From Ferrimicrobium sp. (GTDB lineage: Bacteria; Actinomycetota; Acidimicrobiia; Acidimicrobiales; Acidimicrobiaceae): DNA of 64,000 bases. Below, piece by piece: positions 54,891-57,633 of the stretch; position 1 is the first letter of the stretch; each line of letters begins with the position of its first letter. Position numbers and translations under genes: made by a program. A model generated the notes under the pieces. It had not been told where the DNA came from and ran no database searches. It saw only the letters and a program-made list of their open reading frames with translations. The stretch is taken from contig JALCZJ010000001.1 in assembly GCA_022690815.1 (NCBI GenBank), positions 1 through 64,000 of the forward strand, read 5' to 3'.

Positions 54891-55304
54891 CTACTTCTTG
54901 GTCTCCCAGAAAATGTCACTGATCTGCCCAATGCTGGCAAGAAGTTGATCAGCCACTGCGGTGTCATTGGTGCGCTTCACCTGGCTCGTCAGCTTCTTGG
55001 CATTCCAAAAGACCTCATGCAACTGCGGATACTTTTCGAGGTGGGCCGGCTGAAAGTACTGATACCAAAGGACGTCAAGATGACGATTGACCTCTGCGGC
55101 GCGCTCCTCTTTGATGAGCGTTGCCCGGTCGCGGAAGTATTGGTCATCAGACGCGTTATATTTCTCAACGATTGCCTTGATCGACTCGGCCTCAATCCTT
55201 GCTTGCGCTGGGTCGTAGACACCGCAGGGCAGATCGCAGTGCGCCGAGGCCTGTGCCGGGGCGCGTAGTGTATCTACCAACGTGAGCATTTTTGTGAGCA
55301 ACAT
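54891..55304 (-). CDS. sodN: Nickel superoxide dismutase (SodN)
   Basis: A 137-residue precursor. The nickel hook HCDLPCGVYDP begins at residue 22, so a 21-residue leader must be removed to free the His1 nitrogen that binds nickel, together with Cys2 and Cys6. The rest is the helical bundle typical of SodN (IKAIVEKYNASDDQYF; HLEKYPQLHEVFWNAKKLTSQ). It removes superoxide in the cytosol. The ATG at 55304 follows AAAGGACAACCT. The protease that cuts the leader is encoded divergently next door. Ni-SOD genes are usually regulated by Nur in actinobacteria; no operator was identified. Confidence 0.95.
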   Translation of the reverse strand: MLLTKMLTLVDTLRAPAQASAHCDLPCGVYDPAQARIEAESIKAIVEKYNASDDQYFRDRATLIKEERAAEVNRHLDVLWYQYFQPAHLEKYPQLHEVFWNAKKLTSQVKRTNDTAVADQLLASIGQISDIFWETKK

Positions 55305-55361
55305 AGGTTGTCCTTTCTCTTGTTATGCATGGACACCAGTATCTTACCAGGGGTGCGCCGC

Positions 55362-55778
55362 ATGAATCGGACCAGTGGCAGGTGCGACCCACGGGCTCGT
55401 CGGTCAAAAAGGCGGAATCGAGCTGTGCTGTCGTTAGCCACAATGGCGTTAGCCTCGACATTGTTTGCGATTAGCAGGTACGAGGTGAGCGGTCCATCGA
55501 TGGAACCTACGTTGTTGAACGGCGATCGGCTCTTGGTGGTGAAGTTTCCTTGGCCACCAATTGGCAAGATCATCATCGTTCGGGATGCACGTTCCAGCGA
55601 TGACATGGTCAAACGGTTACGATTTCGTCGCCGCGCAAAGGTCTGGGTGCAGGGAGACAACGATAAATACTCGACGGATAGTCGCCAGTTAGGTTGGCTC
55701 CCGCGTGATAGCGTGATCGGATGGGCCGTTTACCGATATTATCCTCCGGAGAGAGTGGGAAGCCTGCTGGGTGGGTAG
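55362..55778 (+). CDS. sodX: SodX: nickel-SOD maturation signal-peptidase-like protease
   Basis: A 138-residue S26-family protease. One hydrophobic segment (RAVLSLATMALASTLFAI) is followed by the serine box GPSMEPTLLNGDRLLV and the lysine in DDMVKRLRF, then QGDNDKYSTDSRQLGWLP. That is the minimal form found beside sodN, where it trims the SodN leader. ATG at 55362 follows AGGGG; upstream ATG codons exist but are poorly placed. Divergent with sodN, 57 bp apart. Confidence 0.9.
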   Translation: MNRTSGRCDPRARRSKRRNRAVLSLATMALASTLFAISRYEVSGPSMEPTLLNGDRLLVVKFPWPPIGKIIIVRDARSSDDMVKRLRFRRRAKVWVQGDNDKYSTDSRQLGWLPRDSVIGWAVYRYYPPERVGSLLGG

Positions 55779-55807: not shown

Positions 55808-56305
55808 ATGGTGGACCTCCGGGTTCAGATCAATGAGTGGCTTCAGGAGGCAGACGAGCTCGAATTGAGCGCGGCTCCCGTTGAGACCCTCCGGTCGATG
55901 CGTGAAGCAGGCCGCAGACTTGAAAACTCGGTGTCGTATGCACGACGAGTCCTCCAGGCGCGACTCGATATCGCGACTGAACTCCATACTGCGGGGACAG
56001 GTGCCATCGTTTCTGTGGTAACGCCGCATTCGGATCCTGCGCCTTTGGCCGAGCGCCATGTGGAGGTTGAGATCCCAGAGGACGATATGGTCAGCGCGGA
56101 GGCCTATTTGCGCCTGCTCGTTGGAGGTGATCGAACGCATTCGCTCGACCTTCTCGATGCATCTCAGCTTGTCAGCTATCAGGCACGTTTGCAAGAAGGT
56201 GAGCGAACGATTTCTGGGTTGCGAAGGCAGCTGCACCAGCGTCTAGACCTCCTTGGCAGCGAGCTTGTGAGGCGTTATCAACAGCATCCGGTCAGCGGCA
56301 CCTAG
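55808..56305 (+). CDS. RsiG-like anti-sigma homologue with c-di-GMP-binding motif
   Basis: A 165-residue helical protein. Helix 1 carries E39-x3-S43-x2-R46-x3-Q50-x3-D54, exactly the c-di-GMP-binding signature of the actinobacterial anti-sigma factor RsiG (older name AmfC-like). A second copy in the last helix has E132, S136, R139 and D147 but histidine 143 instead of glutamine. A variable middle part (about 60-110) is shorter in conserved residues. In Streptomyces RsiG holds sigma WhiG when bound to c-di-GMP; no WhiG gene is in view. ATG at 55808 is preceded by AAAGGGG. Confidence 0.7.
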   Translation: MVDLRVQINEWLQEADELELSAAPVETLRSMREAGRRLENSVSYARRVLQARLDIATELHTAGTGAIVSVVTPHSDPAPLAERHVEVEIPEDDMVSAEAYLRLLVGGDRTHSLDLLDASQLVSYQARLQEGERTISGLRRQLHQRLDLLGSELVRRYQQHPVSGT

Positions 56306-56391: not shown

Positions 56392-57633
56392 TTGAGACTA
56401 GCAGTAATTAGCTACCACGCCTCTCCCGTGGCGGTGCCAGGGTCGGGAGTCAACGGTGGCATGAATGTTTACGTGAGGGCCCTTGCGACCCATCTTGCCC
56501 GCGCTGGTGTCGACTGTGACGTTTATTCGGCTAATGTCGGTACCGCTGATCAACAGTCATTCCGCCTCGAGTCTGGCCTCTGGCTGCACTCCTTGCCTGT
56601 TCGATCTGGCGAGGGCCAAGCTGCAGGGCCGGACTATCTGGGAATTCCCGAGTTTGCGGATCGTGTGATCGAACACATGCTTCGATCGTCAGTTCGTTAC
56701 GATGCCGTGCACGCGAACTACTGGCTCTCTGGAGTCGCTGCACATCGCGTCAAGCATGATCTCAACATTCCAATGATTACTACGTTTCACACGTTGGAAA
56801 AGGCCAAACGATCCGTTGGTGCATCGGTGGACGATCGATCGAGCCTACGTATTCACCAGGAGTCACGCATCTTGGGCTGCTCCGATGCGGTACTAGCATC
56901 TGGCCAGGATGAGGCGCGGTGGTTACTCGACATGTATCAGGCGCCTGAAGCCAAGATCGTCCATCTGCCACTTGGCATCGATCGCGCGTTTTTCTCACCT
57001 GGGTCATCTGGACCAGCGCGCGAAGCCATTGGTTTCAATGATGGTGTTCCGATTGTACTCTACGTTGGGCGCATTCAGTCATTAAAGGGTACTGCGCTCG
57101 CGGTGGAGACATTGGTTGCCATGCGTGCTCATCGCAATGCTCGGTTGCTGATCGTGGGTGGGCCGTCTGGTCACGATGGCGCGCAAGAGTTCGATCGCGT
57201 GCAAAGTCTGATTCATCGTTATCACCTTGAGGATTGGGTGACCGTGCTTGATCCGATGCCACATGAAATCCTCTCGACGTACTACCGGGCTGCTGATGTG
57301 GTGTTGGTGCCTTCGGTGAGCGAGTCTTTTGGGTTGGTTGCGCTCGAGGCGATGGGGTGTGGCACGCCGGTCGTTGCCACCGATGTCGGTGGACTCAGGA
57401 CAGTCGTAGATGACGGCAAGACCGGCATCTTGGTACAAGAACGTCGTGCCGGCGCATTTGCCGACGCCATTGAGCGGTTGCTATGCAACCCTGTGCAGTA
57501 TCGAGTGATGGCCAAGCGTGCTGCAACTCGGGCTGAGGAGTTTACCTGGGCTGCGAGTGCTGAGAGATTGACGGGCGTTGTCGAACGCGTCGTGCAACAA
57601 GGGGTGTTGGCCAGCTGCACGAGTTGTGCATAG
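56392..57633 (+). CDS. MshA-like family GT4 glycosyltransferase
   Basis: A 413-residue GT-B glycosyltransferase. The N-terminal donor/acceptor loop GSGVNGGMNVYVRALATHLA is the MshA-type signature, with later GRIQSLKGTALAVE and the donor-binding ESFGLVALEAMGCGTPVVAT. MshA joins N-acetylglucosamine to inositol-3-phosphate in the first step of mycothiol synthesis; sucrose-phosphate synthase-like relatives share the motif, so the call is probable. Start TTG at 56392 behind CAGGGGTAAAGCATC. The other msh genes are not in the window. Confidence 0.78.
   Translation: MRLAVISYHASPVAVPGSGVNGGMNVYVRALATHLARAGVDCDVYSANVGTADQQSFRLESGLWLHSLPVRSGEGQAAGPDYLGIPEFADRVIEHMLRSSVRYDAVHANYWLSGVAAHRVKHDLNIPMITTFHTLEKAKRSVGASVDDRSSLRIHQESRILGCSDAVLASGQDEARWLLDMYQAPEAKIVHLPLGIDRAFFSPGSSGPAREAIGFNDGVPIVLYVGRIQSLKGTALAVETLVAMRAHRNARLLIVGGPSGHDGAQEFDRVQSLIHRYHLEDWVTVLDPMPHEILSTYYRAADVVLVPSVSESFGLVALEAMGCGTPVVATDVGGLRTVVDDGKTGILVQERRAGAFADAIERLLCNPVQYRVMAKRAATRAEEFTWAASAERLTGVVERVVQQGVLASCTSCA

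Follow-up and report, generated by a model that had tools for sequence, protein, structure and literature searches.

The rsiG locus and its neighbours

We focus here on one gene within a window of 64 kb, the window being the whole stretch of DNA that was analysed. This gene, rsiG (55808..56305, + strand), encodes a product of 165 amino acids, which its Pfam family, its Foldseek matches and its conservation mark as a predicted twin-motif, c-di-GMP-dependent anti-sigma factor. The original prediction had proposed an RsiG homologue, and the profile search bears this out: the RsiG model PF22802, whose cut-off is 27 bits, matches the product at 67.1 bits (E 1.1e-18) in two stretches that take in both repeats. 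The motif residues listed in that prediction are also exact in the translation. The first putative c-di-GMP motif, E39 x3 S43 x2 R46 x3 Q50 x3 D54 (55922..55969, +), identified from the translation and by class comparison, lies in helix α1 (residues 25-62; 55880..55993, +), the first helix of a predicted antiparallel coiled coil, while the second, E132 x3 S136 x2 R139 x3 H143 x3 D147 (56201..56248, +), is of the His form and lies in the equivalent of helix α5 (residues 118-159; 56159..56284, +). Both helices were assigned from AlphaFold/DSSP and from their respective helix profiles, and both motifs conform to the spelling E(X)3S(X)2R(X)3[Q/H](X)3D (Q50; H143), a form with Q/H at the stacking position that is already written in PMC8325347. 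When all six frames of the 64-kb window are scanned, the pattern E...S..R...[QH]...D matches twice only, both times in rsiG, and judged from the sequence the motif match is not due to chance.

Comparison with relatives points the same way. The ORF is 82-85% identical in the three nearest public relatives, where the ATG at 55808 is kept; these three come from MAGs of Acidimicrobiaceae (class Acidimicrobiia), one of them labelled Ferrimicrobium sp. In an alignment of 23 RsiG sequences, the most conserved columns are the motif residues, with S43, R46, R47, D54, E132, S136 and R139 invariant and E39 and D147 conserved in at least 90%. In phmmer searches of the PDB, residues 17-159 align with S. 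venezuelae RsiG (6pfj_T) and residues 110-156 with that of R. radiotolerans, each match being weak singly (E 0.01-0.05).

The gene for an MshA-like GT4 glycosyltransferase (56392..57633, +) is a conserved neighbour, its adjacency to rsiG being kept across many families of the class; against the MshA equivalog TIGR03449 its product scores 319 bits, below the cut-off of 462. Just upstream of rsiG, at 54891-55304 (-) and 55308-55778 (+), lie divergent genes for a nickel superoxide dismutase (PF09055, 144 bits) and a small signal-peptidase-like protease, and in much of the family this pair and the GT4 gene remain neighbours of rsiG. A link of RsiG to the superoxide dismutase or the glycosyltransferase was considered and rejected: the synteny is conserved, and nothing ties either of them to the switch.

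Predicted fold and relation to known RsiG proteins

The AlphaFold model, built on four close sequences and with a mean pLDDT of 73.5, contains helices at residues 25-62 and 118-159 that are mostly of high pLDDT, with a poorly predicted linker (AlphaFold/DSSP). The predicted structure has the antiparallel coiled coil expected of an RsiG. As the original prediction would have it, the model resembles solved RsiG structures: its top three PDB matches in Foldseek are all S. venezuelae RsiG chains (6pfv/6pfj), with probabilities of 0.99-1.00, TM scores of 0.54-0.58 and E values of 0.008-0.18, and the matches below these three have far lower probabilities.

S. venezuelae RsiG (AmfC; PDB 6pfj, 6pfv) is among the closest known counterparts of the protein. 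The two share twin motifs, two antiparallel helices in the same order, a WhiG partner and a similar length (165 amino acids here, a 176-residue chain in S. venezuelae). They differ in that identity is 24% over the model match, that the stacking residues are Gln/Gln in S. venezuelae and Gln/His here, and that the linkers are unlike; the present host, moreover, has flagella, and nothing implies a part in sporulation for its RsiG. The R. radiotolerans protein (PDB 7lq2-7lq4) has the same motif and the same type of sigma partner, but its own form is a single-motif homodimer with type IV pili as output, and the two predicted helices with two motifs set the present protein apart from a single-motif homodimeric RsiG. 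The twin-motif RsiGs of Acidimicrobiales described in PMC8325347 come from the same taxonomic order and share the architecture, and the window RsiG is a further member; that paper gives the change from Gln to His for motif 1 only, whereas here and in most of the class it lies in motif 2. On the evidence of sequence and predicted fold, the window RsiG is a genuine two-motif member of a known family.

The partner sigma factor

The host genome (2.54 Mb, 60 contigs) was expected to hold a WhiG/FliA-type sigma factor and diguanylate cyclases, and candidates for both are found. In the whole genome, one protein of the FliA/WhiG family matches TIGR02479 above the curated cut-off; it scores 360 bits against the WhiG equivalog NF004935, whose cut-off is 343, and 321 bits against S. 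venezuelae WhiG (6pfj_A). Its gene, whiG, is flanked on one side by a xerC-like gene and on the other by an ORF whose translation looks like ribosomal protein S2 (rpsB-like). The genome also has 12 GGDEF matches, which are possible c-di-GMP enzymes.

The two partners travel together through the class. Across 296 genomes, both RsiG and WhiG are found in 176, RsiG only in 7, WhiG only in 12 and neither in 101, giving 19 mismatches in all; the co-occurrence has a Fisher p of 6e-56, a value that ignores shared ancestry, and the pattern spans dozens of families.

Flagellar genes and candidate promoters

The host has flagellar and chemotaxis genes, including those for FlhA, flagellin, FliD, FliS, FlgD, FlbD and CheA, with further flagellar ORFs around them, and the genome has a flagellar cluster. 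FlhA is present in 46 of the 296 class genomes, and RsiG is found in 43 of these 46 versus 140 of the 250 without FlhA. Three genomes of the class (G250, G256 and G261) have FlhA and flagellin and gave no RsiG or WhiG match at the thresholds used. A check of a few small ORFs in the flagellar loci gave no FlgM.

The strict sigma-28 pattern TAAA-N14-16-GCCGATAW has zero matches in the host genome; the candidate promoters are thus degenerate versions of it, and the pairing of sigma factor and promoter is indirect. First of all, a candidate site resembling TAAA-N16-GCCGATAA lies 64-65 nt before the flagellin start, reading TTAAGTTT-N12-GACGATGA in the host and TAAAGTTG-N12-ACCGATGC, TCAAGGTT-N12-CCCGATGC and similar at the same position in relatives. 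It is kept in the genus and in a family member of another genus, within otherwise diverged DNA. In a comparison over seven genomes, in which a few distant loci lacked a usable start, it ranked top of 600 combinations of position and spacing, with 8.14 matches out of 12 where the mean was 4.22 (sd 0.85). Second, a weight matrix was derived from nine flagellin sites and applied to 187 kb of host DNA, which took in the window as well as 60 kb from flagellar loci; flagellin apart, its best two hits are one 25 nt upstream of cheA and one 58 nt upstream of the probable start of flhA. Scores of at least 17.5 occur three times in the real 187 kb versus 0.35 expected from shuffles. The fourth-best match (16.9) overlaps the start of hemC and was not credible as a promoter. 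Third, the sites recur in relatives: that of cheA 24-26 nt before the start in all six genus members examined, with a weaker TCAAGCA form in three of them, and at 27 nt in the same family member of another genus; that of flhA 58-62 nt upstream in four of the family's genomes, though weakly in one. The proposed promoters of sigma-28/WhiG type, which in Acidimicrobiaceae keep their positions upstream of flagellin, cheA and flhA, are new; they and the sigma pairing are read from the DNA letters. Together with the flagellar cluster, they fit the original guess of a role in motility rather than sporulation.

These sites have to be weighed against a second set. A possible start of pilB is preceded at 13 nt by a WhiG-like site, and a diguanylate cyclase gene by another at 21 nt; the cyclase gene (L010:1429-2433, -) encodes a 334-aa GGDEF protein, and its site reads TTAAGGCT-N12-GCCGATGT. 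One gene cluster of the host encodes PilB, which has an MshEN domain, together with a T2SSF protein and a second T2SSE ATPase, and FlhA is missing from most RsiG-positive genomes of the class. It can thus be argued that the RsiG-WhiG switch works but mainly controls type IV pili and enzymes of c-di-GMP, the flagellar promoters being incidental or belonging to another factor, and the weaker pilB and cyclase sites do echo the Rubrobacter regulon, the precedent for such an output (PMC8325347). However, these two sites, seen in the host sequence, score 15-16, a level reached several times in 187 kb, whereas the flagellar sites (flagellin, cheA and flhA) score 17.6-18.8 and are conserved. We therefore regard an output mainly of pili as unlikely, though the most serious competitor to flagellar control. 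The site before the GGDEF gene would make a feedback loop possible, its score alone not being beyond chance. The PilB-type ATPase itself (L183:9142-11034, -) carries its MshEN domain as PF05157, a known c-di-GMP-binding domain, and pilus extension may thus be a second target of c-di-GMP in the same cell.

Is c-di-GMP still sensed?

In the account preferred here, the two motifs together would form a c-di-GMP site. The original prediction described the second motif as altered, with His143 in place of Gln, a description that the class does not support. The set compared comprises 100 RsiGs of Acidimicrobiia, made up of the better-scoring matches and most of the host family, so that low scorers are under-sampled. 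In this set 63 sequences have His as the stacking residue of motif 2, 25 have Phe and 9 have Gln, and H143 is thus ordinary. Taken as pairs of motif 1 and motif 2, the stacking residues are Gln/His in 50, Gln/Phe in 25, His/His in 13, His/Gln in 9 and Gln/Tyr in one, with two incomplete; the Gln/Gln pair occurs in none of the 100. His is able to stack in the way that Gln does, and the His-type RsiG of C. woesei binds c-di-GMP with a Kd of 25 uM, or 1.7 uM with its own WhiG (PMC8325347). In the available part of that paper, the change from Gln to His is reported for motif 1 only, and no mention of a Phe form of motif 2 was found. We infer from sequence and analogy that His143, standing in place of the guanine-stacking Gln, would not abolish the site.

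It could still be that the RsiG fold was kept while dependence on c-di-GMP was relaxed, leaving a constitutive or otherwise regulated anti-sigma factor of WhiG in the genus. In S. venezuelae, WhiG contacts c-di-GMP through K57, G61 and R62, which correspond to R36, S40 and R41 in the host, so that one is identical, one conservative and one a small-to-small change; K-G-R is found in 38 of 61 aligned WhiG rows, the host sequence being counted more than once, R-S-R is the state of the host genus, and the R62 equivalent is conserved in all WhiGs sampled. Most of the aligned sequences have a longer loop region after helix α1 than the host protein, and in some members of a neighbouring genus the motif-2 Asp is replaced by Lys or Asn. 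On the other hand, both motifs are complete at all five positions in every sampled member of the host genus, which under relaxed dependence would need a selective reason, and the genome holds the GGDEF matches noted above. A relaxed switch is thus improbable in our view. One genome of the Acidimicrobiaceae (G315) has two RsiG-like genes, L046 and G315:C138:6489-6653, and the aligned copy, L046, has Lys for the motif-2 Asp.

Origin of the two helices

Profiles for α1 and α5 were made from the RsiG helices of the class with the host genus left out. S. venezuelae α1 scores 61.7 bits with the class α1 profile versus 22.0 with α5, and its α5 scores 37.9 bits with the α5 profile versus 2.0 with α1. 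In the same way, the α1 of the window scores 50.9 versus 14.5 bits, and its α5 scores 51.6 bits with the α5 profile versus 18.9 with α1. The single motif of R. radiotolerans matches both profiles alike, at 39.3 and 39.4 bits, as expected of a form that predates the duplication. Helices 1 and 5 are thus orthologous one-to-one to their Streptomyces counterparts, and the protein post-dates the duplication. These sequence scores indicate that there is one shared, old duplication before the split of Acidimicrobiia and Streptomyces, which agrees with the published model. The suggestion in the original prediction of an intermediate between the single-motif homodimer and the twin-motif monomer, its second motif altered and in part lost, could draw on a position 143 that is not Gln and on a motif 2 that scores below motif 1 in the Pfam model (35.6 vs 40.9 bits), but it is contradicted here and very improbable given that His is the commonest residue there and Phe occurs too, that motif 2 retains its E, S, R and D, that each helix pairs with its own Streptomyces counterpart while the Rubrobacter motif matches both profiles alike, and that twin-motif RsiGs were already published for three of four Acidimicrobiales species (PMC8325347).

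A model for RsiG-WhiG control of swimming

We propose that helices α1 and α5 of a monomeric twin-motif RsiG pair as an antiparallel coiled coil, each helix carrying one E-x3-S-x2-R-x3-[Q/H]-x3-D motif, and that the two motifs together would hold a c-di-GMP dimer, by homology to the solved complexes. RsiG in this bound state would clamp regions 2 and 4 of WhiG and keep it away from RNA polymerase. Most likely, WhiG reads the sigma-28-type promoters of flagellin-fliD, cheA and flhA; if so, high c-di-GMP would shut the late flagellar and chemotaxis genes off. At low c-di-GMP, on the other hand, WhiG would be released, and the candidate promoters imply that its release would switch on the flagellin, chemotaxis and export genes. 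For the window RsiG, the binding of c-di-GMP, the binding of WhiG and the regulatory outcome are drawn by analogy with the known systems. The genes for swimming are thus probably turned off by the RsiG switch in the host, and the account as a whole, from a twin-motif RsiG with a c-di-GMP-dependent hold on WhiG to flagellar and chemotaxis genes that are off at high c-di-GMP, appears to us likely.

Such a role would parallel that of FlgM, the anti-sigma-28 factor of flagellated bacteria, in that the window RsiG too would act on a sigma-28-type factor controlling flagellin. FlgM has a fold unrelated to RsiG and senses completion of the hook by export, not c-di-GMP.

Implications

According to the available part of PMC8325347, c-di-GMP was in 2021 known to target a single sigma/anti-sigma pair, RsiG-WhiG, whose two known outputs did not include flagella, and Actinoplanes has flagella and WhiG without RsiG. 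That part of the paper was not found to propose an output for the Acidimicrobiales RsiG, and no paper tying RsiG to flagellar control was found in the literature at the level of titles and abstracts or in the available text of PMC8325347 and PMC13251363. The proposed flagellar output is the new and testable part. A smaller extension of the known family, on the sequences compared, is a wider signature, in which the guanine-stacking position of motif 2 may be His, Phe, Gln or Tyr in the class; with this position variable, searches that require Gln there miss most class members.

RsiG and WhiG are common in genomes without FlhA (140 of the 183 with RsiG), so that flagella cannot be the sole output class-wide, and in class members lacking FlhA the RsiG-WhiG switch must have another output. 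We give even chances to flagella being a third output of this switch, beside sporulation and type IV pili. WhiG belongs to the sigma-28 clade, whose function is swimming motility, and a flagellated lineage with RsiG, WhiG and WhiG-type candidate promoters would allow a direct test of whether the switch can run such motility.
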